From assembly GCF_026210795.1 (NCBI RefSeq), contig NC_089440.1:868001-932000 (forward strand): DNA of 64,000 bases, read 5' to 3'. The position numbers were made by a program, and so were the translations under genes. The DNA is from Rhizophagus irregularis (taxonomy: Eukaryota > Glomeromycota > Glomeromycetes > Glomerales > Glomeraceae). The notes below the pieces were generated by a model that was given only the letters and a program-made list of their open reading frames with translations, was not told where the DNA came from and made no database searches. This document shows, piece by piece, positions 18,761 through 62,811 of this stretch (position 1 is the stretch's first letter; each line of letters starts with the position of its first letter).

Positions 18761-20252
18761 TCATTTAATGACTTGAAAAACTTCATAATCCTCTACATCA
18801 AAAGTTACTAAAGGTGGAAACATTCTAGGATAAGAATATGCTCTATAACTTGCCCAAGTACCATCATTTTGACAAAATAAATCATGACCACCACCAAATG
18901 TTGGACCATAATTTTCATTACAGTATATAGAAGAAAGGTATTCATTTTCATCAGGATAACCTAATTTTACACTTTGATAATCATTCTTATCTATAAATGA
19001 AAATATGAAACTATCTTTAGTTGATTTAAAATTTTCACTTTTATCCCAAAAAAGTGGATTATAACCTCCAACTATTTGTTCAGTATTTGTAATTTTTGCT
19101 ATAACTATAGTAGATTCTATATTATCACATTTCTCATGGAATGCCTTTGAAGTATTACCATCCCTACTTCTACGATAAAGTAATTTAAATTTATAAGGAA
19201 TATTTTTTAAATTATAAAATGAATCATCTTTTCTATCAATCCAACTAGCAAACGTAGTAAAATGTTTACGATCAATTATGATTGAATCATAAATACTTTT
19301 TGATTGTCTAGGTGGTAATATAATAATATTTGTTTTTAAATTTGGTGTCAAAAGACTATTATAAACATCTTTTAATAGTAAAGTTTTCAAAGGAAATACT
19401 TTATCATGAAGATCTTCCTGAGACATATGATGAAATCTAACTAACGGAATACATCTATGAAGAGTTTTTTTCATCATGTTAATTTCTTCCTCATCCCATT
19501 TTTTAAAATCTTGTTGAATTGAAGGATTTTGAGTAAGTCCCCATTTTATCAAACTATCCCAAATAATAGTTTCATCTAAATTTAAATCATCTCGTTTTAA
19601 AAGTAATTCTAATAAAGGTTCTTTTATAGTAACAAAATTTTCAGAATTAAATATTATATCCGGTTCTTCACAAATTTTCTCAAAATAATAATTATATAAA
19701 TCTGTGAATAATTCACATTGATAAACCATTTCAAAAATTTCTATAGGATTTTGATATAAAAACTCATCTTTATGTTCATTCAAGTATTTTTGAATACAAG
19801 GAATTAAAGTTTGAATATTAAGTTCATCCACCGCAATCAAAAGTTCTAATGCGTCAAGACCTTGTAATTTTGTTAAATCAATCTTTCCGCAATAAATAAA
19901 TCTATGATAAAAGTAATTGTAATTAAGAAAAAAAAAAATCAACATGTACAATAATTATTACGAACATCAAAAATTATATATTTATTATTTTACGTTACCT
20001 TAGAATAATATTAAATATTTGAGGAGGAATATTGGGTTTTTTAAAAATAAATTTTCCATCCTTTTTTTCAGCCCATTTATTAGAAAATGCAGCACAAAAA
20101 TATTGTAACCTGGTACATAAAATAGGTGAATGCGCATGAAATTCTTTTATATTTTCATTTTCACCGACATAAATAATAACATCATATCCTATTTCAGTAA
20201 TAAATAATTTTTCTAAATCATTAACGACTTCTTGATAATATTCGTGAGACAT
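18761..20252 (-). CDS. BTB-BACK-TLDc domain protein (copy A)
   Basis: Two exons: 20252-19999 and 19901-18761, with a GT-AG intron of 97 bases that splits an Arg codon (ILR/FIYCG), giving 464 residues. Exon 1 is a BTB fold (YDVIIYVGENENIKEFHAHS, then PILCTRLQYF, then WAEKKDGKFIF). Exon 2 opens with FIYCGKIDL, followed by a helical BACK-type region (DELNIQTLIPCIQKYL onward) and a C-terminal TLDc domain from about residue 285 (TFASWIDRK, YKFKLLYRRSRDG, IVGGYNPLFW, FGGGHDLF, DYEVFQVIK). BTB-BACK proteins are often cullin-3 adaptors and TLDc domains are linked to oxidative-stress resistance and V-ATPase binding. The role here is inferred from domains only. Same intron position and strand as copies B-D. 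Confidence 0.9.
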
Positions 20253-20321
20253 ATTAGTTTTATTAGGTTGAATGAGAGAGTGTTAAAATTTTGTAGAAAG
20301 AAATATTTTTATAAAAAATTT

Positions 20322-20362
20322 CGTACGACAGTTACGCTCCGGATAATAATTGTACCGTAATT
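20322..20362 (-). promoter_or_regulatory. Conserved upstream motif of the BTB-TLDc array, copy A
   Basis: 70-110 bases upstream of the start codon the minus strand reads GGTACAATTATTATCCGGA and then a CGTACGA stretch. It resembles the motifs upstream of copies C and D. Confidence 0.4.
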
Positions 20363-21624
20363 TTAGTTACATATGATTATCGGAAAAAAAAAGTTAGTAT
20401 CTAAATCTTTTTTAAAGTTAATTTTAACCCACAACATGACGAAACATGTGATATTCATGCAAAAAAAAATTTTTCTAGAAATTTTTATTAATATGCTAAG
20501 AAAATTGATACAAAAACTTGAAATTTTATAATGATTTGATTCCTTCAATTTAAAAATACTATAGTGATTATTTAAATTTCTGTTTATTCAAAGTGATAAT
20601 ATAATGGCGTAGATATTTTATATTAAACTCCTTTGAATACTTAGGTTGATCAAGTTGATCTGGTATTTGCCGCAGTTACCAGGGTTCACGGACAATCATA
20701 TCCACCGACAAACGTTTCATCGACAAGGCCACTTCGCTGATTGGTTCAATGCAAAGCTATTTAAATTTTTTTTTCTAATTTTTTGCTCATCGCAGCTATA
20801 AATAACTGATATGTGTAGTAATTAATAAAAATTTTTAAAAAATTTGAGGCTACATATTAGTCATTACTAAATTAGGACAATATTAAAAAAAAAAGAAAAG
20901 AAAATTTTATTTTTATTACGAAAGACATAATTATATGGTTTTTTTTTCTTAAAAAAAAAAAAATTTATATTTAAAAATTACCATATATGTCGTCTGTGGT
21001 GAAACATTTGTCTGTGAGTCGAGTGCATCCCGGAATATTGCGGACCGTTACCCGACTAATGCTGGCGTTAGATCTCTGCATAACTCTGGCCAAATCTGTC
21101 GGGAAAATTTCCTGTCGGGGAATCTCCAAGGAATCTCCTTCGGGAAATCGCATTATTGCATGTTTTAATTGGTCATATTTTGTACTACAATGTTTATTTG
21201 GTTTCTCTTGAGGACCCGAACCACATTTTATGATTTAAAATTAACATTCATAAACGTGGAAAATAGGACAAGCCTATCAAATGTGAGTAAATTAATTTTA
21301 TAAAATTAGCAGATAAATGTTGGGTTTAATTGAATCACACTTCAAATGATATAAAGAGAAATTTAATATAAAATTTTTTCCAATAAATAAACTTTTAAAC
21401 ATTATTTGTGACGTGGCTAAATTTCTAGTAACACAAATTAACAATATTAAAGAAATCATTAACTCGTAAAAATCAAAAAACACTACTATTTTACACTCTT
21501 CTGCATAAATTTTATATAAAGAATGCCATGATACTTTAATACTTTATGCCAAAACTAATTAATTTTATTTTAATTAACAATTTTAATATAAAGAATTCTA
21601 CTAGTATCTCATACACAAATTTGA
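20363..21624. other. Spacer between BTB-TLDc copies A and B
   Basis: A GC-richer block at 20985-21190 is open on both strands for about 60-74 codons but shows no domain. It may be a decayed coding or transposon fragment. The rest is A+T-rich without features. Confidence 0.35.
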
Positions 21625-23118
21625 TTATCTTTTAATAACTTGAAATACTTCATAATCATCTACTTCAAACCTTGCCGGTATATCATCAATTTCAGGATAT
21701 GAACTATAATAATTGTCAAAAGAACTATGCCAAGGACCTTTTCTATCACGATATAAATTTGGACCGCCACCAAACCCTGGTCCACGATTGGAAAAATTCC
21801 TTATAGAATATTTATTACCATTACTATAACCTATTTTCGCTGTTTCGATATTTTTTTCATCTGTAATTAAGTATATAAAACTATCAAATGTAGATTTATC
21901 TTGATCGCTTGCATCCCATTGAAGTGGATTATATCCCCCAACTATACTTTCTGAATTTGCAATTTTTGCAACAACAATAGTAGCTCCTTTATTATCACAT
22001 TTATTATGAAACATTACGGGCGTATCACCATCTTTACTAGCACGATAAAGTAAATTGAATTTGTAAGGAATATTTCTTACACCATAATGTGAATTTTCTT
22101 TCTTATCAATCCAACTAGCAAAAATAGCAAAATGTTGACGTTCAATTAAAGTTGAATCATAAATAAAATTTGATTTTCTTGGAGGTTGAATATCATTTTT
22201 TAATTTCTTATTTGACGAAACATGATATTTTATGAGATCATCAACTAAATCCTTTGGTAGTAATTTTTTAATAGGATATACCTTTTCAATAAAATCATCT
22301 GAAGAAATATGATAAAATCTTATTAATGGAATAAATCCATGAAGAGCTCTCTCCATAATTTTAATATCCTCTTTACTCCATTTTGTAATGTCTTGTGAAA
22401 TAGAAGGATTATGTGCAAGTCCCCATTTCAGTAAACTATCCCAAATAAGAATTTCGTCCAAACCTAAATCATCCCTTTCTAAAAGTAATTTCAATAAAGG
22501 TGCATTTAAACTGGTAAATTTATCAGATTCAAATAATATTTTAGGTTCTTCACAAATCTTCTCAAGATAATAATTCCATAAATCTGTAAATGATTCATGT
22601 TGATAAACTGTTTCAAGAATTTCTATAGGGTTCCGTTGCAAAAATTCATCTTGATGCTTAATCAAATGATTTTGAATACAAGATATTAAAGATTGAATAT
22701 TAAGTTCATCCACTACAATCAAAAGTTTTAGTACCTCGGGACCTTGTAACCTTGTCAAATCAATCTTTCCACAATAAATAAATCTAATTAATTAAAAATA
22801 TTTAAATATAATCATTTGCGATTTTTAATTTTTATAAAATATCTTTATTTTACATTACCTCAAAATAACTTTAAAAAATTCGGGAGAAACATTAGGTTTC
22901 TTAAAAATAAATTTTCCATCATTTTTTTCTGCCCACTTATTAGAGAAAGCTGTACGAAAATATTGTGATCTTGTACATAAAATATTTGAATGTGCATACA
23001 ATTCTTTCATACTTTCATTTTCACCAGCATAAATAATAACATCATATCCTATTTCAGTTGTAAGTAATTTTTCAAAATCGTCAACAACTTCTTGATAGTA
23101 TTCGTAAGACATTTTCAA
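21625..23118 (-). CDS. BTB-BACK-TLDc domain protein (copy B)
   Basis: Exons 23118-22859 and 22783-21625, intron 75 bases at the conserved Arg codon, 472 residues (470 if the second Met at 23112 is used, the position equal to the start of copies A and C). BTB segment: EIGYDVIIYAGENESMKEL, then WAEKNDGKFIFKKPN. BACK-like region: VDELNIQSLISCIQNHL and ERDDLGLDEILIWDSLLKWG. TLDc: HFAIFASWIDKKE, IPYKFNLLYRASKDGD, GATIVVAK, IVGGYNPLQWD, FGGGPNLY, DYEVFQVIKR. All segments are open and ungapped against its paralogues, so it is probably functional. Its target is unknown. Confidence 0.9.
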
Positions 23119-23845
23119 ACTAGTTTAAGGAAGATAGAAAAAAAAATCCGAAAAATTTGAAAGTCTAATAAGAATGGACTTACTAAATTTATAAAGAATT
23201 TTGTCATGATCTGCAAAATTTATTTCTTTTTTTTCTAAGAAGCTGTACCACCATATGATTAAAAGTGGATCTCGATTTAGAACTGATTTTCAATTTAGTA
23301 TAACGGTTGTAAATTAATCGTTATTTGATAGAAATTAATCAAAAATATTCCTAATGATCAGTATACCATATTTACTGCACATGTGGCTTATCTTATAATA
23401 AGGTGTATTCACTTTTTTTCATTACTATTAAGAGCTTCCAAGAATTTTTCAAACTGATGAGATATTTTAAATGTTCATTGATATGGAGTATAAATTAAAC
23501 AATTTATTTGTTGTCAAACTTATTTTAATAATTTTGAAAAGATGTAAAAAAAAAAAAAAATTCGATCAAATTAGCAGTGACCATCACATGAGATTCAAAT
23601 TGGTTGGTTCCGTGAGCGTGCATTGCAGATCATCTAGACGAAAAAATCGGTATTTGATCTAATACTTTAATTATTCGTAAGTATAATTTTATATTCTCAT
23701 ACTTAAATAAACATTTCCTTTACTTTATTTATTAATAATTGTAATATTTTTAAACGTAAATCTATCAATATAACGATAATATAATTTAAGAAAGATACAT
23801 AAATAGAATATAAAAATTTTTATACAAGTATAATCAACATTAAAT
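23119..23845. other. Spacer between BTB-TLDc copies B and C
   Basis: A+T-rich with a poly-A run near 23545. No gene or clear element is seen. The conserved upstream motif of the other copies is not clearly present 5' of copy B. Confidence 0.4.
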
Positions 23846-25301
23846 TCAATCCTGATTTTTAATAATTTGGAATACTTCGTAATCATCTACTTTAAACCTT
23901 ACCGGTATTCCTTCAATTTTGGGGTAAGAATTATTATAATCATAAGAAATATTTCCACTATGCCAATTACCATCATTATTAAAATACAAATCACAACCAC
24001 CACCAAACGCTAGCCCATGATCAGAAAGATTTCTAATAGAATATTGATTACCATTACTATAACCTACATTTGCAGTTTCTATATCATTTCTGTCCGTAAA
24101 TAAATATATAAAACTATCGATTGTAGCCTTCCATGTATTGCTTGAATCCCATTGAAGTGGATTATATCCTCCAACTATTCGTTCTGAATTTGTAATTTTT
24201 GCAACAACAATAGTTGCACCTTTATTATCGCATTCAACGTGAAATGCTGCGGGTGAAAAACTATCCCTACTAGCACGATAAAGTAAATTGAAATAACAAG
24301 GAATATTTCTTACACCATAATGTGATTTTTCTTTCTTATCAATCCAACTAGCCAAAATAGCAAATTGTTTACGTTTAATTATTGTTGAATCATATCTTTT
24401 AGGTGCAGTATGAAACCTCACGAGGTCAACAATCAAATCTTTCGGTAGTAATTCTTTAAAGGGATATACTTTTTCAAGAAACTCGTCCGAAGAAATACAA
24501 TAAAATTTTATTAATGGGATAAATTCATGAAATGTTTTTTCCATAATTATAATATCTTCTTTGCTCCATTTTGTGATGTCATGTGAAATAGAAGGATTTT
24601 GTGCAAGGCCCCATTTCAATAAACTATCCCAAATAATACATTCTTCCAAATTTAAATCATCTCTTTCTAAAAATAATTTCAATAAAGGTATCTTTATACT
24701 GATAAATTTATCAGAATCAAATAGTATTTTAGGTTCTTCACAAATGATTTCAAAAAAATAATTCCAAAAATCTGTGAATGATTCATGTTGATAAACTGTT
24801 TCAAGAATTACAATAGGATTCTGTTTTAAAAACTTATCTTCGTTTTGAATCAAATAGTTTCGAATATAAGAGATTAAAGATTGAATATTAAGTTCATCAA
24901 CTGATATTAAGAGGTTCAATACTTCAGAAATTTGTAAATTTGTCAAATTAATCTTACCACAATAAATAAATCTAATTATTTAAAAAAAAAGTATATTTAA
25001 TTACGATGTTAAATTTTTTATAATTTATCATTAACTTATTACGTTACCTTAGTATAACATTAAATAATTTAGGAGGTATGTTAGGTTTATTAAAAATAAA
25101 TTTTCCATCTTTTTTTTCGGCCCATTCATTAAAGAATGCTGCATAAAAATATTGTGATCTGGTACATAGAATATTTGAATGTGCGTGCAATTCTTTCACA
25201 TTTTCATTTTCACCAGCATAAATAATAACGTCAAAACCTATTTCAGTTGTGAGTAATTTTTCAAAATCGTTAAGTACCTCTTGACAATATTCATGAGACA
25301 T
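23846..25301 (-). CDS. BTB-BACK-TLDc domain protein (copy C)
   Basis: Exons 25301-25048 and 24971-23846, intron 76 bases, 459 residues. Starts MSHEYCQEVLNDFEKLLTTE. BTB: FDVIIYAGENENVKELHAHS. BACK-like: VDELNIQSLISYIRNYL and ERDDLNLEECIIWDSLLKWG. TLDc: FAILASWIDKKEKSHYG, IPCYFNLLYRASRDS, ATIVVAKITN, IVGGYNPLQWDS, FGGGCDLYF, DYEVFQIIK. The linker between BACK and TLDc is shorter than in B and D by about ten residues. Nothing indicates inactivation. Confidence 0.9.
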
Positions 25302-25363
25302 TTTTTTTTTTATATAAAATATATAAAATAATTTCAGAAATTTTATATTGAAAAGTTTCGGAT

Positions 25364-25408
25364 TCTTGTACTACTGAAATTGGGCTTCGGGTAATAATTT
25401 AACCGTTT
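25364..25408 (-). promoter_or_regulatory. Conserved upstream motif of the BTB-TLDc array, copy C
   Basis: About 65-105 bases upstream of the start, the minus strand reads GGTTAAATTATTACCCGAA followed by CAGTAGTACAAGAATCC. It matches the copy D motif closely. Confidence 0.5.
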
Positions 25409-25879
25409 TTTTTTCCTTTTTTATCATAAAAGGCTAAATTCATTATATTACAAATAATGATGTCAAAATACCCAGCCGCGAAAATCTGCAGAATATTTTT
25501 CTATAGTTATATATTTCCAAAAAACAGATCCGTTATTGTAATAAATAATACAAATAATGCAAAACAATAATTTACTAAGCAATTCTATAAATAATAGTTT
25601 TGTTGAATTAATAAAATGTTATAAACAGTATTTGTGCTTTACTTATCTGCAATTAAGGAGTTTTCATGAGTTTTATTTACATTTTGTTTTCTTCTCGTTA
25701 ATATAAGTGTAAAGCTTTAATTTTATTTAAGATACCAATCTCGAAAAGTCGAAATTTTATCTCATTTCATAAATTGCAAAAAAATTTTTACTTTATTTAA
25801 ATACGGCTGACATCCAGTAGACCCGAATTACGTACAGCCACGGCTGAGCTATTTATCACAGCTAAGACGGCTGGTCAGC

Positions 25880-27315
25880 CTCACTATTAATTACGTCAAA
25901 GTTTCTGAAAATCATGATCTTCATGAAATGATCCTATCTGCTTCCTTTTATGAAATGGAAAAATTTTGGGCAAGACACTAAATATTTCAATAAATTATAG
26001 TGCTCTGAACGATACGAGTCGACCCGGGTTAATTTGACCCAACTCGACTTTTAAATCAGGTCGGTACTAACGATTTTTAATGACCCGTGACCCGCATGAC
26101 CCGCATGACCTGACCCGCCGGGTCGGGTTATAAATTTCCTTGACCCGGGTTTGACCCGGATCGTTTTAATTCTGGCAAAATTATAATTTTGGCCAAAATT
26201 AAGCCAAGAATTAGTTTTAACAAATATTAACATAGCTTATTAAAGCAGAAAAATAAAAAATTAACCTTTGGCTTTTGAGAATAATATTTTTTCGATAGCT
26301 TTAGAATTCCAATTTATCTTTGATTTGAATATCTGCTAATTATTTTGCATAATTCTTTGACTTTTATTATATTAAACCAGGTTCAAAATTCGTATTTTTG
26401 ATTTCATTTTAGTTAATTAGTCTAGGAGTAAAATAAGAGCTAGTGTTATATGTTTTGTATAACCATTCATGATACAAATTTCAGGTGGCTACTAGTGGTT
26501 AATCACTAAGTCACCTTTTTTTCAAATAAAAGGAAATTAATTTTGTTATTATTATAAGAAAATCTCACATAATATAAGTTAGTACCCATTTTACTTAAAT
26601 GTTCGGGTTTAACCCGGGTTACACGAGTTAAATTATACTCGGTCGAGTCAAGGGTCGGGTTACGAAAATATGAGACCCGAATAAATCCGAGTCTTATATT
26701 TTTTTATTCAGATCGCGTCGAATATTTCCTCAAAACCTGACCCAACTTGACCCGGTAGGAGCACTACAATAAATTATCCAAAATTACAATTTTTTCTAAA
26801 CCCAAGGTTAATCCCGTTTTAAAAGTAATTTTAACAAAGGATTTTAAATTGGTAAACTCATCAGAATTAAATAGCAGTCCAGATTCTTCACAAATCTTCT
26901 CAGAAAAATAATTCTATAAATCTGTGAACGATTCATGCCGGTAAAATGTTTCAAGAATTTCTAGTTTCAAGTATTTCTATAGGATGGATTCTGTTGCGAA
27001 ACCTTTCTCGATATAAGGTTGAATATTAGGTTTATTTACTGTAATTAAAAGAAAACTGTGTAATTTTGTTAAATCAATCTCAATAAATAAATGCAAATAA
27101 TTAAAATTATATATCACACTGTAGCAAATTACGGTACAAAATGGTAAATTCGGAAGAGTTTTGGAAATAAATTTCCGCCCTTTTATCGAGCCATTCATTG
27201 GAGAGTGCTATTTATGACCATGTACTATTCGAATAAGCATGATATTTTTTTTATTTTTTACTTTCTCTGGCGTAAAATGACATAATATCTCTCTTTAGTT
27301 ACAAGATTTTGAAAG
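25880..27315 (-). pseudogene. Degenerate BTB-BACK-TLDc copy split by a hAT-like element
   Basis: On the minus strand from 27315 the order of paralogous remnants is MSFKIL, RDIMSFYARE (from YDVIIYAGE), MNGSIKGRKFISK (from EWAEKKDGKFIFKK), then around 27060 IDLTKLHSF and after it TVNKPNIQPYIEKG (from VDELNIQSLI), then YFSEKICEESGLLFNSDEFT near 26900. Past the insertion LAQNFSIS appears at about 25960. Stops and frameshifts are frequent and the TLDc part is missing. It sits between intact copies C and D in the same orientation, so it is a dead member of the tandem array. Confidence 0.75.
25998..26766. mobile_element. Non-autonomous hAT-like element inside the BTB-TLDc pseudogene
   Basis: Left end TAGTGCTC and right end GAGCACTA are inverted repeats. 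They abut the direct repeat CAATAAATTA (25988-25997 and 26767-26776), which contains an 8-bp target duplication with a 2-base ambiguity. Subterminal regions carry clustered GACCCG / CGGGTC repeats. The middle has TTTTGGCCAAAA and AATTCTGGC motifs also seen in the element at 12155-13187. No transposase is present. Confidence 0.75.
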
Positions 27316-27766
27316 ACATTTTATGATAAGTTAAGAAAGTTAGAATAAATAAATAAATAGATGAACAAGCAAAAAACTAATTTTTAGAAGAATAATTTGT
27401 GAACAGCAGCTTAATAAATTTGCTTCTTTTTTTGTATTGGTAAACAAATTTTTATGGATTAAAGAAATATCTTTTGTGATACGGTAATAAGGAGATCAAA
27501 AAAAACCGAACAGAAAGTTTTTCAAACGAATTTTACAAGTTCGACGTTGCGACGCGTAAAGATATTCAACTACATCATTATTTAATGTTTATTGAAGTTG
27601 ACAGCATTTTTTTATTTATCAGATTTATAATGTATTGGAAGTAAAGAATAACTTGAATCAATGAATTATTTTGAGGACAGTTTTTGGCACACGTTGTACT
27701 TGAGTCTTCTCTTTAATAAAAAAATATTTTAAGTATGACTAACGTCAAATACATTCAATAAGAATC
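27316..27766. other. Spacer upstream of the degenerate BTB copy
   Basis: A+T-rich, with no gene, RNA or element recognised. Confidence 0.4.
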
Positions 27767-29259
27767 CTATTTTTTAATAACAAGAAAAACTTCAAAATCT
27801 TCTACATTAAATCTTCCTACCGGCATACCATCAATTTTAGGATAAGACCTTGGACCGTTCCTATGCCAAGCACCATCGCTATTTTGATATAAATCACAAC
27901 CAGCACCAAACCCTAGTCCAAGTGAAGAAAAATTTCTAATAGAATGTTGATCACCATTACTATAACTTACTTTTGCGGTTATTATGCTCTTCCTATCTGC
28001 AAAAAAATATATAAAACTGTCAATTGTGGACTTATTCTGATTACTTGAATCCCATTGAAATGGATTATATCCCCCAACTATTTGTACTGAATTTGTAACT
28101 TTAGCAACAACGATAGTTGCACCTTTATTATCACATTTATTATGAAATGCTGCAGGTGTATTACCATCTCTACTAGCGCGATAAATTAAATTGAATTTGT
28201 AAGGATTATTTCTTATATTATAATGTGAATTCTCTTTCTTATCAATCCAACTAGAAAAAATAGCAAAATGTTGACGTTCGATTAAAGTTGAATCAAACTT
28301 TGATTGTCTAGAAGGTTGAACATTTGGTTTTCTATTAGGTGCAATATGAAATGTTAACAGATCATTAACTAAATCTTTTGGTAGTAATTTTCTTAAAGGG
28401 TGTACTTTATCAAGAAAATCTTCTGGTGAAATATGATAAAATCTTATTAAAGGCACAAGTCCATGAAGAGATCTCTCCATAATTGTAATATCTTCCTTAC
28501 TCCATTTCGTGATGTCTTGCGAAATAGAAGGATTTTGTGCAAGTCCCCATTTCAGTAAGCAATCCCAAATAAAACATTCGTCCAAACCTAAATCATCCCT
28601 TTCTAAAAGTAATTTTAATACATGCGCCTTTAAACTGGTAAATTTACCAGATTCAAATAATATTTTAGGTTCTTCGCAAATTTTCTCAAGACAATAATTC
28701 CATAAATCTGTGAATGATTCATGTTGATAAACTGTTTCAAGAATTCCGATAGGATTTTGTTGCAAAAATTCATCTTGATGTTTAATCAAGTAATTTTGAA
28801 TATAAGAGATTAAAGATTGAATATTAAGTTCATCCACTACAATCAAAAGCTTTAACACTTTAGGACCTTGTAATTGTGTTAAATCAATCTTTCCACAATA
28901 AATAAATCTAATTAATTAAAAATATTTAAACGTCAATTATAATCTTGTGAATTTAATTTTATAATAAATAATAAATTAAATTTATTTTTACATTACCTTA
29001 GGATAACTTTAAATAATTCGGGAGAAACATTAGGTTTCTTAAAAATAAATTTTTCATCCTTTTTTTCAGCCCATTCATTTGAGAACGCTGTATAAAAATA
29101 TTGCGTTCTAGTACATAAAATACTCGAATGTGCATGAAATTCTTTCATATTTTCATTTTCTCCAGCGTAGATAATAACATCATAACCTATTTCAGTCGTA
29201 AGTAATTTTTCGAAATCGTTAAGTACTTCTTGACAATATTCATGAGACATTTTTTTCAA
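27767..29259 (-). CDS. BTB-BACK-TLDc domain protein (copy D)
   Basis: Exons 29259-28997 and 28907-27767, intron 89 bases at the conserved position, 467 residues from MKKMSHEYC (466-464 if an inner Met is used). BTB: EIGYDVIIYAGENENMKEF, then WAEKKDEKFIFKKPN. BACK-like: VDELNIQSLISYIQNYL and ERDDLGLDECFIWDCLLKWG. TLDc: HFAIFSSWIDKKENSHYN, PYKFNLIYRASRDGN, GATIVVAKVTN, IVGGYNPFQWD, FGAGCDLYQ (others have FGGG), DFEVFLVIKK. It is the most upstream gene of the array. No damage is seen. Confidence 0.9.
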
Positions 29260-37782: not shown

Positions 37783-38699
37783 TCAAGTGATGTATTGTGC
37801 TGAAACTTTTCCACCAACTAATGTTTTTGATAACCTAGATTTCGCTTCAAAATCTGCTTCCCATCAATCAGATGATAAATGTAAAATCGATCTGTCTCCA
37901 CAAAAGTCTTTCATTTTTGCTTTTTTTTCAACAAGTAAACCTTCCCAATCTTTCAAATTTTCTGCCTCCAGATGTAAACTCCCATAATCATAGAAAAACT
38001 GTATATATCGCTAGATGGAGTGTAAGGTTTACCTCTTAAAACTTCAGGTGCCATAAATGGTTTAACACCATAAATATCATCTTTTCTAAAAGATTTTACA
38101 GGGTGACATAATCCTAAATCACTAATATAAACACAATCTACTTTATCCGTTTCACGATTGTTCTTATTTAAAATATTGCCATCATGAAAATCACGATGAA
38201 CAATATTTTGTTCATGCATTTCAATAAGTCCACGAATAATATTATTCAACATGCACAATTTATGTTTCCAATTATATTTAATTACTTTCGACAAATTTCC
38301 TCCCAAATTGCCTTTGTTTGCATAATCCATTACTGCCATATATTGCAAAGTATTTGAATTCTTTGTGAATCCATACAATGTTATATACAACTTTAAACTT
38401 ATATGACATCCCACTATATATATAAAATTCAATATTAGTTTAAATAAATTATTGAAATTAAAAAAAATAAATAATGTATTATCATACTTCATTTATAAAT
38501 TCATCTAAATTTTCATTCAAATTATTAACACATTTAAGATCCTTCCCATATAGCTTTATGTATAGACAGTATAGTACCAAATCCTCCTTTATCAATATAT
38601 TCAACATTTTTAAATTCATTATAAGAAATCCAGTTTAATTTATTTTCAAAAATAAGTTTATCCAAATTTGCATTTCCACTGCTTTCAAAACAATAACTT
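37783..38699 (-). pseudogene. Protein kinase (TKL-like) pseudogene, rearranged C-lobe
   Basis: Minus strand from 38699: ANLDKLIFENKLNWISYNEF, glycine loop DKGGFGTI, a shift at GS, then DLKCVNNLNENLDEFINEV. A GT-AG intron follows (about 38495-38420), then VMDYANKGNL, catalytic HRDFHDGNIL, SDLGLC, MAPEVLRGKPYTPSSDIYSF. After SMIM a +1 shift gives WEFTSGGRKF, where paralogues have the PPF/RPxI C-lobe. Here that part is missing and a tail-like segment follows (DFEAKSRLSKTLVGG) with stops, ending near 37783. The N-terminal Cys-rich part is absent. Probably inactive through a deletion plus frameshifts. Confidence 0.75.
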
Positions 38700-39169: not shown

Positions 39170-39905
39170 ATACTTACTCTAAAATTTAAATAAATATGTA
39201 ATTGTATAAATATATATAATAACTTGGCTAAAAGTTTTAATTATATAGCTTAGTAGATCGTAAATGATCAGCTGATACGCCGATCAATCCGATCATGTTC
39301 CAAATTTTACAATTCCAATTAAAAAAAAATATCAAATAATTTTTAAATAAAGAAATTAGTTAGTTTAAATTATGTGTAAATATTATATAAATAATTTATA
39401 ACTTAGCTTACAAGAAATAAATTACCAAATTTTAAATAAAGAATTGTGTAAATATTATTTAAATATGCAATAGAATTAAATGAATGACTTACAAAACTAT
39501 ATTGTAAAATTATTAATTTAAATTATATAAAATATAAAAATATAAATATTATATAACTTACACCCTGTAGTATTATTTATTAATTATTAATTAATTAGAC
39601 ATAAATATATGTCACTTACAATCTAACCATTTAAATAAAGAATATAAATTAATTTAATTTGAATTATATGTAAACATTAAATACTAAGTACAATTAAATA
39701 CTGTAGCTTACCTTCTATAATGGAATTAGTTATAAATAGTTATTTAAACAAAGAATTAGTTATTTGACATTATATAAATATAGTAAAAAATAAATAACTT
39801 ACTAACTGTAGTTATTATTAATCATTAAATGAATTATTTTAGTTATAAAGAAGTAATTCCATTTTTATTCAAATTATAAGATAAAATATTGGCTTACGAG
39901 CTAAA
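39170..39905 (-). repeat. Array of intron-like units around 3-nt candidate micro-exons
   Basis: On the minus strand five places show an acceptor (TAG or CAG), exactly three bases, then a consensus donor GTAAGY: CTC (39900-39898), TTA (39805-39803), AAG (39714-39712), ATT (39622-39620) and GGT (39564-39562). Another has four bases (TTTT, 39496-39493). Degenerate sites occur near 39400, 39233 and 39175. Intervening segments of 55-92 bases share A+T-rich wording such as AAATTAATTTATATTCTTTA and are of intron size. The array lies just downstream of the 3' end of the MGHC gene on the same strand. Whether the units are spliced is unknown. Confidence 0.55.
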
Positions 39906-40097
39906 TTATTTAAAATAATTTTGTACAACAGACAAAAATATAATTAGTTTAAATTATATGTGAATATCACATGAAGTATAGTAATTTTTAAATTATTTAT
40001 GAATAATTTTCTAAATAATTAAAAAAGAAGTTTAATATATTCCAAATTGTTTAGTGTATTATATTTACCTTTAGATTCCTTTGTACTACTTCCTAGA

Positions 40098-40390
40098 TTC
40101 CTCAACGCTACTTTTTTCAGAATTTCTCAACGCTACTTCTCTCAGATTCCTCAACGCTACTTTTTTCAGACTCCTCAACGCTACTTCTCTCAGACTCCTC
40201 AACGCTACTTCTCTCAGACTCCTCAACGCTACTTCTCTCAGACTCCTCAACGCTACTTCTTTCAGATTCCTCAACGCTACTTCTTTCAGACTCCTCAACG
40301 CTACTTCTTTCAGATTTCTCAACGCTACTTCCTTCAGATTCCTCAATTCTACTTCTCAGTGCTACTTTCTTCTGATTCCTCATTGCTACT
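40098..40390. repeat. 24-base tandem repeats
   Basis: The unit CTCAACGCTACTT plus an 11-base variable part (CTCTCAGACTC or TTTCAGATTC) is repeated about ten times with substitutions and small indels at both edges. Because 24 is divisible by three, all frames stay open for long stretches on both strands. Only the minus-strand SSVEESER frame joins flanking exons with splice sites. Confidence 0.9.
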
Positions 40391-40680
40391 TTCTTCGGAA
40401 CCTTCGGTTCAGATTTTTTAATATTACTGGAAACTAGTTTTGTTATATTGCAAATTTGTTTCAATTATATTTATTTATTTACAATTAATTTTTTTTTAAT
40501 AAATAAAATTTAATATTTCAACTTGTTTAGCTAGCGTATTATATTTACCTTTAGGTTTCTTGTCGCTACACGAACCTAGTTTTATTATATTGCAAGTTTG
40601 TTTTAAAAATTTTGAATAATTCTAATTTATATTATATATTTATGCCATATGCTTTTACCTTTACTAGTACAATGACCCAT
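40117..40680 (-). CDS. MGHC-start Ser/Glu-rich repeat protein
   Basis: Exon 1 (40680-40659) has 22 coding bases: MGHCTSK plus one base. Exon 2 (40575-40549) is 27 bases. Exon 3 starts at 40433 and reads to TGA at 40117. Joined, the start is MGHCTSKGSCSDKKPK, about 121 residues in all. Gly2 and Cys4 fit an N-myristoylation/palmitoylation signal, so membrane anchoring is inferred. The body holds basic KK-rich residues, then about eight copies of an acidic SSVEESER octad from 24-base repeats. Introns 1 and 2 end alike (CAATATAAYAAAACTAG), and exons 2 and 3 both end AAAG/GTAAATATAATAC, so the exon-intron units arose by duplication. Exon 3 could also splice at 40069. No known family is recognised. 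Confidence 0.55.
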
Positions 40681-43738: not shown

Positions 43739-44423
43739 ATGAGGTTATTATCCTTAGTTAAAGCATATAAAGTACCGTACTATAATCATGTTAAAGCATA
43801 TAATGTACCATGTTATAATTACAAAAAACCAGCAATAGTTGGCATTAAAACTTGTGAGTTTATAATATATATATTTATTTATTTTCTTCTTTTCTTTAAC
43901 TGATTTTATTTTGTAACTTTAATTCTTAGTTTGCACTCTAAATTTTTATAAAAAATCTGATGTCTTTGCACCAATAATGCCTGATGATTCAGATGTTAAA
44001 TCAAAAGATTTGTATGAAAAAGTTTCAGAAATTCTTAATGTTAAATACCTCTCAGATACTACACAAGAATTAGATGAAGTCAACGGAATTTTATATGGAT
44101 ATTCTAACCGATTTTTTGGAGTAATGACGATGAATATAAATGATAAAATTAAAAATTTAATTTTTCTTATTGATACTGGTTCTCCAAAGACTTACATCAC
44201 TAAGGAAGTGTTAGATTCATGTTTGCCAAATATTACTAATACATATAATCCTTTTTCTGTGATATTAAATAAAAGACATATAGCAGTAAATGTATCTCCT
44301 GTTGGTTCTACTTTTAGTGATTTGAATATATTAGGAACAGATTATATGAGTGTATATAGAGCTAAGTTGGATGCAGATTTTAAGCAAAAAAATTTTAGTA
44401 TTAAATTTAAGTCTAGTTATTGA
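43739..44423 (+). CDS. Retropepsin-like single-domain aspartic protease 1
   Basis: Exons 43739-43853 and 43930-44423, GT-AG intron 76 bases, 202 residues. The N-terminus (MRLLSLVKAYKVPYYNH...) is basic, hydroxylated and free of acidic residues for about 45 residues, which suggests a mitochondrial presequence. The core has FFGVMTMNIND, then FLIDTGSPKTYI with catalytic Asp at about 120, and later SDLNILGTDYM, the hydrophobic-hydrophobic-Gly element of a retropepsin fold. Only one DTG is present, so a dimer would be needed for activity. There is no reverse transcriptase or integrase nearby, so it reads as a host gene. Exon 1 holds an in-frame 33-base tandem duplication (VKAYxVPxYNx twice) relative to gene 3. 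The substrate is unknown. Confidence 0.75.
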
Positions 44424-45503: not shown

Positions 45504-46338
45504 ATGAGATTATTGTCTTCACTAACATCATTTGAAGTGCCATATTATTATCACAAAGGAATTGCTTTCAAAACTGGTATATAATATTATTTTTACTTGA
45601 TTTAATTAAGCATATTTCCCTCATTTTTTTATTTGAATGAATTTTCTAAATATAGTTTTTCCCCAGAATTATAATAATAAAAAATTGTTTGCCTTACCAT
45701 ACCATTTTCTTCCAACTGTAAAGACCTGTAAGTTATTATATAATTCATTTATTATTGGAATATATTTATTTTACAATTTTGCAGACTGAAATAAAACTCT
45801 TATTATTTTTATTTTTCAAGTTTACACTAGAAACAGTCATGATGATGTGATGGTTATTGATGTACATGATGCCATCAAATCAGAAGATTTGCACAAAAAA
45901 GTATCAGAAAAACTTCATGTCAAATACCTTTCAAACTCTGCACAAGAATTGGATGAAGTTAAAGGAAATTTTATTGGTGATAATACGAGACCTTTTGGTG
46001 TAATGACAATGAAAATAAACGGACAGGTTAAAAATATACATTTCCTTATAGCTACAGGATCTCCAAAGACTTATATTTGTAGAGAAGTATTAGATTCATT
46101 CAAATTGACTATTCCTAATTCAAATGAAACTTTCACAACAAGACTAAATAAAAGACAAATATTGGCAAATGTAACACCTGGTGGTTTTTACTTTAGTGAT
46201 CTAAATATTCTTGGAACAGATTACTTGTGTCAATATAAAGCTCAGCTATTCAAAGATTTTGAACAAGGACATTTTGCTATAAAATTTGATAATTATTATT
46301 CTGGAATCAATACAACTCAAGATAATTGTACTAAATAA
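45504..46338 (+). CDS. Retropepsin-like protein 2, catalytic Asp replaced
   Basis: Three exons: 45504-45576, 45656-45727 and 45821-46338, all GT-AG, 220 residues. N-terminus MRLLSSLTSFEVPYYYHKG is again free of acidic residues. Exon 2 adds 24 residues not found in genes 1 and 3. The core matches gene 1: AQELDEVKGN, FGVMTMKING, then FLIATGSPKTYI, where GCT (Ala, about 126) stands in place of the catalytic Asp codon GAT. The SDLNILGTDYL element is intact. The frame is open throughout, so it is probably a maintained pseudoenzyme or a recent inactivation. Same strand as gene 1, 1.1 kb downstream. Confidence 0.72.
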
Positions 46339-55271: not shown

Positions 55272-55908
55272 ATGAGGTTATTGTCTTTAGTTAAAGCATA
55301 TAATGTACCGTACTATAATTACAAAAAACCAGCAATAGTTGGCATTAAAACTAGTAAGATGATAATACATATATTTGTTTATTTTCTTATTTTTTTTAAC
55401 TGATTTTATTTTGTAACTTTAATTCTTAGTTTGCACTCTAGATTATTATAAAAAATTGGATATTTCTGCCATAGAGGATCTAATAACGCATGATTTTTCA
55501 GATATCAAAGAAAATTGGCATGAAAAACTTTCAGAACTTTATAACCACTCAGATCAAGAATTAGATGAAATTAATGGGTTTTTATATGGACGCGCTAACC
55601 GATTTTTTGGATTAATGAAAGCAACAATAAGTGGGAAAACCAAGAATGCATACTTTCTTATTGATACAGGTTCTCCTCGAACTTACATTTCTGCCGAATT
55701 ATTAAATGCATATAATATAACTGTTTCTAATGAAACACATCATGATATCATATTAAATAAAAGGCCAATCACAGCGGGTATATCCCCTGCAACAAGTATT
55801 TTTTCTTATTTAAATATTTTAGGAACGGATTATATGAGTTCATTTGAGGCTAAGCTACACGCAGATTTTGAAGAAAAGAAGTTTACTATTAAATTGAAAC
55901 CTAGATAA
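55272..55908 (+). CDS. Retropepsin-like single-domain aspartic protease 3
   Basis: Exons 55272-55353 and 55430-55908, GT-AG intron 76 bases, 186 residues. Promoter, exon 1 and intron are nearly identical to gene 1, so this is a recent duplicate 11.5 kb away, beyond the 6.4-kb element. N-terminus MRLLSLVKAYNVPYYNYKK is basic and lacks acidic residues up to about residue 31, like a mitochondrial presequence. Core: ELDEINGFLYGRANRFFGLM, FLIDTGSPRTYIS with catalytic Asp106, and SYLNILGTDYMSSF near 155-167. As in gene 1 there is one DTG and no second lobe, so activity would need a dimer. The role is unknown. Confidence 0.75.
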
Positions 55909-60582: not shown

Positions 60583-62811
60583 GTAATATGTTGAGTTCCA
60601 ACGAGTTTTTACATCTAATTTTAGACTAAATATTTAATACATAATTTGCAAAGCCATGATGTATTTCCTTCTGGCACATATTTTGTATCATGTATTTTTT
60701 TAGTGTTTTGCATAAAATTCTTCCATGATAAACACCTTCTATCCAAGAATTCATTTATTCCTTCAGTCTTATGTCTTTGAGAAATACATCTGTTTCCCAC
60801 TTCTGTGTCCACTTTTTTCTCAATAATGCATAGAAGGGGACATAATAAATTCACCAAAGAAATAGCAAAATAATCTCCTTTGATCAACTACTGGCTAGTA
60901 TATTCTCCTCTGTACACTCTACATTTAGACAATTTCTAAAACTGTGCCATAATAATTACAAATATGACACAGATCTATTGCTAATCTTTCCTCCACTGTT
61001 TCTGTATCCATTTATGCTTCCATTTCTACATCCACTTATTCTACTTGTTTTTCTCAATAATGTATAGAAGGGAACATAATAAATTCACCAAAGAAGTAGT
61101 AAAATAACCTCCTTTGATCAACTACTGGCTAGTATATTCTCCTCTGTACACTCTACATTTAGACAATTTCTAAAACTGTGCCATAATAATCACACATATG
61201 ACACAGATCTATTGACAATCTTTCCCCCTCTACTGTTTCTGCGTCCATTTACTCTGTTGTCTTTTCCTATTTCTACATCCACTTATTCTACTTGTTTTTT
61301 CTCAATAATGTATAGAAGGGAACATAATAAATTCACCAAAGAAGTAGTGAAATAACCTCCTTTGATCAACTACTGACTAGTATATTATCCTCTGTATACT
61401 CTACATTTAGACAATTTCTAAAACTGTGCCATAATAATTAAAAATATGACACAGATCTATTGCTAATCTTTCGTCCATTTTTGTTTCTACATCCACTTAC
61501 TGTAGTTTCTAATTTAATTTTGACTTAAAGAAGTAAACAAATTTCTAATGCTCTTCTTAACATATTAATTAATACATGTTAAAAGTTTCCCTACTGTCAT
61601 CAATGGTTCTATTATTTAAATATGTAATAGTTACGAATTTCTATTGTATCATTCAATTTCCCATGTAAAAGCATTAGTTTTTCAAGTTCAATATTATTAA
61701 TGTCATAAAAAATTTAGTTTCAAGGTATTTAAGACCCAAAAACTGGAAAATCTTTATCATAGTATTTTATACTTTCATGAAATTCATCATCATATCTAAA
61801 TATTATAGTTTTGATAAACTTAGCTAACATAAATATACAATGCCAATATAGGAGAGTATCTATTTTTAAATAATTCCATGCAAAGAATTTCTTCTCTATC
61901 ATAATGAAAACTTAAAAACTTTGCTAAATTAATAATATGATGTGAATAAATTTTATGTTAATTTCTAACAAATTGCTAAATATTTACATTCATCTTTTTT
62001 TATAATATTTATAAATTTTTATCACAATACAATAGTATAATCATTGAAATACAATAACTCTTGGTTAAAGTTTCTTGGTAGTTTTTTTTTTTACTTTCAT
62101 CTTTATTATGACTGAGATATAGTGAGCAGGAAATTTGGTCATATTTGTCATTATGAATTCTGAGATTATCTATAGTTGGTAGTAAATTATTAGAGCACTT
62201 AATGAGTGTTGTTTCCATTATTTAGACTTTTAATATATTTCCAAAATGAGTCCCATTTCCATCCTGAACCCATGTGCAATGTTTCTATATTGCTTCCTCT
62301 AATGATCTGATATTATTTTACTAAAATTTCTTATATTTCTATATATTTCTATATTATTCCATATTTATGGAAACTACAATACAAGCTAATCTGTCAACTT
62401 GTAAAACTGTTCTTATTTCTATTGACTTGATTCTTTCAGGTGCTTCAAGCACTATATATATGTGTGGGCATCCCAAGATAACAATTGCTTAAATTAGCTA
62501 ATCTTTTTTCCAATAATAATACAGTATCATGGAGTGATCTTATAACAAATATGAGAAACTTTAGGTCATTGAAGAAATTCCATGTGTATAATATTAAGTC
62601 AAGTTTATATATAGCTTCAGAATAAAATTGAAAAGCATTCAGCATTATAGAATCCTAGCAATTTTATTTAATTAAACATCAAAATCTCTATTTCTTTCTC
62701 TACTTCTTCTTTTGAACTTTCTTTTTCAACTTCTTCTATTTGTTTTGCATCTGATACTAACTGACATTCAACAGGAACTCTAGCCTCTTTTCCTTTCCAA
62801 CTTATAGTCAT
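60583..62811 (-). pseudogene. Coding relic, possibly hAT-transposase-derived
   Basis: Protein-like open pieces lie on one strand in order: MTISWKGKEARVPVECQLVS to MFN stop (62811-62668), LNAFQFYSEAIYKLDLILYT (62642 down), APERIKSIEIRTVLQVDRLA (near 62450-62350), WVQDGNGTHFGNIL (near 62270), METTLIKCSNNLLPTIDNLR (62218 down), LAKFLSFHYDREEILCMELF (near 61900), NNIELEKLMLLHGKLNDTIE (near 61690), and, after tandem repeats, a frame at 60887-60621. A shifted frame then gives LDVKTRWNSTYY (60618-60583), close to the DVxTRWNSTYxML signature of hAT transposases. The other pieces are not recognised, so only the end is assigned with any weight. Intron-rich gene and pseudogene cannot be separated by eye. 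Confidence 0.4.
60800..61500. repeat. Three tandem repeats of about 240 bp
   Basis: Units share AATTCACCAAAGAARTAG, CTTTGATCAACTACTG, CTGTACACTCTACATTTAGA and GACACAGATCTATTG. Starts of the shared word TCACCAAAGA fall at about 60851, 61085 and 61333. On the minus strand each unit encodes ERLAIDLCHICNYYGTVLEI or a close variant. Confidence 0.85.

Follow-up and report, generated by a model that had tools for sequence, protein, structure and literature searches.

Can exons of exactly three bases be joined in series into a translated message, and how would such a series be built? The question is raised by a locus in the window, by which we mean the whole 64,000-nucleotide stretch of Rhizophagus irregularis DNA analysed here, for which an initial annotation had proposed a series of single-codon exons between consensus splice sites. 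Re-reading of the sequence confirmed the five minus-strand sites of the form YAG-NNN-GTAAGY, enclosing CTC (39898–39900), TTA (39803–39805), AAG (39712–39714), ATT (39620–39622), and GGT (39562–39564), and the annotated sixth site proved to be a degenerate four-base unit on the same strand, TTTT (39496–39493), with TAG before and GTAAGT after it. The measured exon spacings of 95, 91, 92, 58, and 68 nt agree with the 58–95 bases given there. Chance is, as had been argued, an unlikely source of the three-base interval: the pattern occurs six times in the window (both strands), five of the six matches being packed into 350 nt, against a mean of 0.55 and a maximum of 5 in 100 dinucleotide shuffles.

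The window locus is, in our judgement, very probably a degenerate member of a large fungal protein-kinase family with arrays of 3-nt exons that would be consecutively spliced and translated. An intact member is predicted to contain three short 5′ exons, an array in which every exon is exactly three bases long and the introns, of about 96 nt, nearly always start with GTAAGT and end with TAG, a closing one-base exon A, and finally the kinase-coding exons; splicing would remove every intron and join the tiny exons in order. This gene design is extreme and little studied, part of each protein seemingly being encoded at one codon per exon. If RNA agrees, thousands of three-base and dozens of one-base exons are accurately processed, well outside the range in which exons are normally recognised, and for an entire family of receptor-like kinases the coding part could easily escape standard gene prediction; the family would then also serve as a natural system for how spliceosomes define introns without exons, and for how a fungus builds variable recognition proteins.

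Anatomy of the window locus and of its paralogues

Three 5′ exons precede the array in the window, all on the minus strand. Exon 1 (40659–40680) has the sequence ATGGGTCATTGTACTAGTAAAG, encodes MGHCTSK, and ends in phase 1; exon 1 of the paralogues L011 and L015 reads MGQCIGK, and we take the common N-terminus MG[HQ]C.. to suggest lipid anchoring. Exon 2 (40549–40575; 27 nt) ends in phase 1 at AAAG/GTAAAT and has counterparts in the paralogues. Exon 3 (40069–40433) is 365 nt long (2 mod 3), contains an in-frame stop, and is largely occupied by Ser/Glu-rich 24-nt tandem repeats (40086–40357) encoding SSVEESER-like units. Downstream of the five single-codon exons and the TTTT unit, a trinucleotide CTT (39412–39414) with the donor GTAAGC but without an AG acceptor is probably the remnant of a penultimate CTT exon, by comparison with the CTT tails of the paralogues, and a 1-nt exon A (39178), with TAG before and GTAAGT after, is conserved in the paralogues. 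The kinase-coding remains (37956–38690) show homology from about 38690, and their ORF 37956–38492 gives a partial match to the kinase profiles (PF07714 / PF00069; E = 1.2e-20). An intact open kinase was not found in this copy, in which inspection by eye of about 38690–38500 revealed no AG acceptor, an in-frame stop, and frame damage; the distance from the 1-nt exon to the kinase region is about 490 nt, versus 66–93 nt in the paralogues. It is most likely that the window copy is a decayed, degenerate paralogue with a broken kinase, that is, a pseudogene.

Other features of the window were noted in passing. Four related long ORFs of 377–397 aa lie on the minus strand at 18761–28915 and presumably encode BTB/TLD-type proteins; three further related ORFs (43923–44423, 45790–46338, and 55423–55908) share a DTGSPKTYI-like motif, which we take to be that of an aspartyl protease; and a tandem array of 2.8 copies of units of about 234–248 nt, with 90% matches, occupies 60813–61501.

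A DNA search with the window region returned 279 matches across the genome, self included. The family was described from 28 array stretches, 25 taken from these matches and two (L010 and L014) from the genome-wide list of 3-nt exon patterns, while L035 continues L009, the whole representing at most 27 genes; L001–L006 were left out of the counts, and L032 and L036–L040 were analysed apart. Exons were chained in runs of at least four with gaps of at most 130 nt, those outside chains being dropped. The nearest YAG lies exactly 3 nt upstream in 864 of the 877 array donors (GTAAGY), where the spans counted are bounded by the outermost chained 3-nt exons and their ends are thus set by this length itself; the remaining spacings are 2 nt (1), 6 nt (3), 7 nt (1), 10 nt (2), and more than 30 nt or no YAG (6). 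These figures bear directly on the idea that the units are recursive splicing points, at which one long intron would be removed stepwise with nothing left in the message. Acceptor and donor do stand close together, as they do at recursive sites, which however are of zero length (AG/GT), and a 0-nt spacing is found at none of the 877 donors; moreover, a message lacking the array and the 1-nt exon would put the kinase out of frame. Recursive splicing was rejected on the acceptor–donor spacing, and we rate it as the most improbable of the readings weighed here.

The arrays that would instead be joined into the message are long. Tens of consecutive 3-bp exons are found in family stretches, against only five in the window copy, and a gene has from 11 of them (L007, with a single gap) to 56 or more (L009, interrupted by gaps). 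Their introns have a median length of 96 nt (range 66–125; n = 793), 659 of the 793 containing a CTAAY branch-like motif; the donor is GTAAGT in 816 and the acceptor TAG in 807 of 860 units. At the 5′ side, the start-exon pattern (ATGGG..., MGxC) was matched in only six of the 28 stretches, and the exon-3 pattern in seven, always with a length divisible by 3, one of the seven (L012) having stops and probably spanning an extra intron; exon 3 of the paralogues is Ser/Glu-rich and ends in phase 1. The array opens with CTY TTR NNN ATT GGT in 18 of the 28 stretches, this motif as searched being absent from the other 10, and the window copy has AAG as its third unit, the same as L013. Toward the end of the array, most stretches have CTT and then TTG or TCG. 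In 23 of the 28 stretches, the array ends in a 1-nt exon A flanked by YAG and GTAAG, with an acceptor AG/[AG]TTTG 66–93 nt beyond it in 20 of the 23; this exon was not found within the remaining five (L009, L031, L034, L023, and L029), a match being present beyond the fetched end for L009, L031, and L034.

The kinase itself was scanned for in L011 and in the window ORF, ORF L011:3214–4092 matching PF07714 at 4.2e-34. The segment directly after the 1-nt exon (L011:2915–3145; 77 aa) itself matches no Pfam family, and we assign it to the kinase by its position and by what we take to be a glycine-loop motif. An intronless copy of the array was not found with one joined pattern of the first micro-exons (one mismatch allowed); the two matches were taken as chance, one lying within a kinase-like exon elsewhere in its domain and the other where stops abound. 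A 17-residue protein query likewise had no match, as expected for a query so short and split.

In the whole genome of 146.7 Mb (32 contigs), a normal-size intron followed by YAG-NNN-GTAAGY was found 4,325 times (2123 + 2202), against 55 (30 + 25) for the reversed control pattern. The corresponding counts are 39 (18 + 21) versus 99 (52 + 47) for 4-nt exons and 98 (52 + 46) versus 51 (31 + 20) for 6-nt exons, so that three bases is a singular length among those tried. The 1-nt exon together with the start of the following exon occurs 70 times, versus 2 in the control, and a two-exon pattern gave 70 + 57 matches versus 0, in which array starts and tails are mixed, making it no count of genes. The excerpted text of PMC10234402 puts the kinase tally of Rhizophagus irregularis at 2,533. 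A few clusters of other lengths were also seen: four 4-nt exon matches at C5:150555–151543, two of them back to back, may form a separate short array, and clusters of 6-nt exon matches, some consecutive, lie at C21:741112–741495 and C24:854776–920528, with introns resembling those of the 3-nt arrays.

Reading frame and junctions between array exons

The frame of the array is defined from both of its ends. The exon after the array starts with one base of a codon, so entry into it must be in phase 2; exon 3 leaves phase 1, and 3n bases plus the single A of the closing exon convert this to phase 2, whatever the value of n. In the array, each amino acid would thus be encoded in phase 1, by the last base of one exon and the first two of the next. 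Over 793 adjacent junctions, a single phase-1 stop was observed, where 27.8 ± 4.1 were expected, and none of 2000 within-chain exon shuffles gave a number as low (minimum 14). Since the arrays contain duplicated blocks, the count was repeated on distinct exon pairs only, giving 1 stop in 299 types, versus a mean of 17.4 in 343 (minimum 9) in 1000 shuffles. No depletion was found for the same following exons after A, C, or G (36 vs 29.9, 39 vs 29.3, and 49 vs 34.2), and reversed neighbour pairs show an excess (42 stops in 793 vs 27.7 expected). Stop avoidance is thus confined to immediate neighbours in the forward order. Local sequence bias is unlikely as its cause, because the two parts of each junction codon sit an intron (about 96 nt) apart. 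Phase 2 contains 149 stops in the kinase arrays, and phase 0 is nearly stop-free (5 TGA in 862 exons); phase 1 is favoured over phase 0 by the frame at both array ends and by the order-dependent result, not by stops alone. Because junction stops are avoided only between adjacent exons, the array exons appear to be selected for consecutive splicing and translation, selection at the junctions and the frame being, like the anatomy and the counts, legible in the genome itself.

The same test bears on combinatorial alternative splicing, in which each 3-nt exon would be optional and one gene would yield many proteins. All the exons share phase and length, so that any subset stays in frame, and optional inclusion of microexons has a precedent in the NACHT-ankyrin genes of Tuber melanosporum, as excerpted in PMC10197012, PMC4986451, PMC9815663, and PMC3689799. 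Such splicing predicts, however, that stops should be avoided also at skip junctions, which is not seen with one exon skipped (32 stops in 724 vs 25.3 expected) or with two (30 in 655 vs 22.7), a comparison that would miss minor or degraded isoforms. We therefore consider free optional inclusion rather unlikely.

Far less probable still is an array that stays untranslated, as a minisatellite or a splicing decoy within a single long intron or a 3′ untranslated tail. One of the two readings offered by the initial annotation was a splicing decoy or a product of decay located downstream of the MGHC gene, and the upstream stop in exon 3 and the broken kinase frame (by eye) of the window copy are in line with a lack of translation there; for this copy the suggestion stands insofar as a decaying gene is meant, not a decoy. 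For the family it is contradicted: the array sits between the 5′ exons and the kinase-coding region, the kinase frame works only with the closing 1-nt exon, and order-specific stop avoidance requires the 3-nt exons to be joined and translated. An untranslated array leaves unexplained both this avoidance and the conservation of a 1-nt exon that sets the kinase frame, and the decoy or minisatellite reading was rejected on the junction stop counts.

With consecutive splicing in phase 1, five of nine chained stretches have no stop between the beginning of the array and the 1-nt exon, namely, L015 (33 exons), L017 (23), L019 (31), L021 (27), and L033 (32), with one weaker site each in L015, L019, L021, and L033 and none in L017. 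A complete open chain was not obtained in the other four, in which L011 retains one junction stop, the L016 chain began inside the array, and the L027 and L030 chains ended short of the 1-nt exon. Translated, the array is predicted to place between the N-terminus and the kinase domain a variable segment, about 20–60 residues long, in which D, R, W, F, N, and Y are abundant. Of the 793 residues encoded at the junctions, 12.0% are D, 10.3% R, 10.2% W, 8.1% F, 7.4% N, and 7.2% Y, and one is a cysteine; this mix of aromatic and charged residues would suit a binding surface. We propose that the segment evolves fast and serves for recognition or docking in a kinase attached to the membrane.

How arrays change, and a second array type

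The initial annotation had described the intron-sized segments in the window as homologous to one another. This does not hold, all 10 pairs of the five being similar to shuffled sequence (z from −0.6 to 2.3). Instead, each window intron resembles the intron at the same position in at least one of three paralogues (best z 14.4, 9.8, 9.8, 4.4, and 4.7; for L013 alone, 14.4, 9.0, 9.8, 3.8, and 1.4), and it is the long paralogue arrays that do contain homologous neighbouring introns. The accompanying proposal that a gene adds codons through duplicated units of intron plus micro-exon is well supported for the family by the thousands of matches, by some segmental duplications of units, and by the neighbour-only stop avoidance.

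Simple duplication is nevertheless not the whole account. When three or more introns in a row could be matched, the interior exons differed in 293 of 397 cases although the introns were nearly identical (1913 edits in 56161 intron nt), the same introns entering several pairs so that the pairs are not independent. Introns with less than 2% flank divergence surround different codons, both within and between loci, and identical adjacent introns can separate three different codons; where two neighbouring introns are 97% or more identical (27 pairs), the exons that follow them match in 12 cases and those that precede them in 7. Simple tandem duplication alone does not explain near-identical introns around different codons. 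Extreme hypermutation of the exons was set aside, since clear segmental duplicates retain their codons (L028 runs, 0/6; L021 runs, 6/17).

Our preferred but unproved route for the evolution of the arrays is unequal recombination within homologous introns. A crossover within an intron would add or remove whole three-base exons only, and the frame would survive the gain, loss, or exchange of units. Its main rival is the spread of introns by insertion, in which near-identical, introner-like mobile introns would have entered between the codons of an existing coding sequence. The near-identical introns around different codons, within and between loci, and the identical adjacent introns between three different codons are what such insertion would leave; by itself, however, it gives no 3-nt spacing, and the codon-keeping segmental duplicates of L028 and L021 speak against it. 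We regard spread by insertion as doubtful, though worth retaining beside unequal recombination.

Arrays of a second type occur in the same genome. From C1:1723678 onward (L032), 52 consecutive 3-nt exons are separated by introns of 89–129 nt unrelated to those of the kinase arrays, with donors GTAAGT (29), GTGAGT (18), and others (5) and acceptors CAG (48), AAG (3), and TAG (1). The array reads MDERLWEELEESLKGLLPPTIPPPPPLPGRLPLGTKIPSPPPLPGRLPIKK in phase 2 only, there being stops in phases 0 and 1, and the start codon is split across the first two 3-nt exons; the phase-2 stop count (0 observed vs 0.56 expected) has little power. Past a gap, 17 more 3-nt exons precede an ORF for a coiled coil and an AIG1-type GTPase (PF04548; 1.3e-17). 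The AIG1-type array is located at L032 (G000:C1:1723400–1732000) and L037. A DNA search with the L032 array matched only itself and one C17 locus (L040; G000:C17:3898500–3907500), which has L032-like introns and a run of 15 3-nt exons, uninformative on phase because it is open in all three. This run lies upstream of kinase-like ORFs, presumably of a zinc-ribbon plus kinase type.

Taken further, as a tentative picture that falls somewhat short of probable, the family would be a multigene family of membrane-anchored kinases, each bearing a hypervariable recognition segment encoded at one codon per exon, with the near-identical introns serving as recombination scaffolds in a system of codon-level diversification that would have arisen in this genome with two or more unrelated intron types. 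We infer in this picture the splicing of the RNA, the recombination route, the membrane attachment, and the recognition role.

Comparison with known systems

Looser parallels to the present arrays are provided by the schistosome micro-exon genes (MEGs) and the aphid bicycle genes, closer ones by the nank genes of a truffle. The exons of MEGs are not uniformly one codon in length and those of bicycle genes are longer than one codon, and we know of no kinase among bicycle genes. Instead of the signal peptide of the MEG products, the N-terminus MG[HQ]C.. of the present proteins would suggest lipid anchoring. According to the excerpted text of PMC4350168, MEG products carry this signal peptide and are described as alternatively spliced, and the likeness lies in coding regions consisting largely of very small symmetrical exons and in variable proteins. 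The bicycle genes likewise form a fast-evolving family with numerous micro-exons that nearly all share one phase, although this phase is 2 and the products are putative effectors (PMC9168663, in excerpt). Another likeness is seen in the hypervariable repeat domains of fungal NLRs (e.g., the WD repeats of Podospora), in which homologous repeats with variable positions are reshuffled by unequal recombination, as far as the excerpts of PMC9815663 and PMC10197012 go; there, the scaffold is protein, whereas here the homologous scaffold would be the intron, with one codon per unit.

The literature found contained no report of Rhizophagus microexons, and no micro-exon arrays in arbuscular mycorrhizal fungi were among the matches listed. 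In Tuber melanosporum, an expanded NACHT-ankyrin family contains tens of codon-sized, alternatively spliced microexons, the 3-bp microexons of nank being attributed to Iotti et al. 2012, as given in excerpts of PMC10197012, PMC4986451, PMC9815663, and PMC3689799. Judged from these excerpts, both systems combine tens of codon-sized exons, an expanded fungal family, and a variable region joined to a signalling domain. The present genes, however, encode kinases and, in one case, an AIG1-type GTPase, and a scan of four pieces, including two of the kinase gene L011, gave neither a NACHT nor an ankyrin match at E ≤ 0.001; the kinase arrays end in a 1-nt exon; the avoidance of stops suggests consecutive inclusion, not free skipping; and the pattern matches number 4,325 in one genome. 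Thus, codon-sized microexon arrays as such are already known from the truffle, as far as those excerpts describe them, whereas the gene family, the fungal phylum, the closing 1-nt exon, and the thousands of exons are new here, as is the evidence, drawn from junction stops, that points to consecutive rather than optional inclusion.
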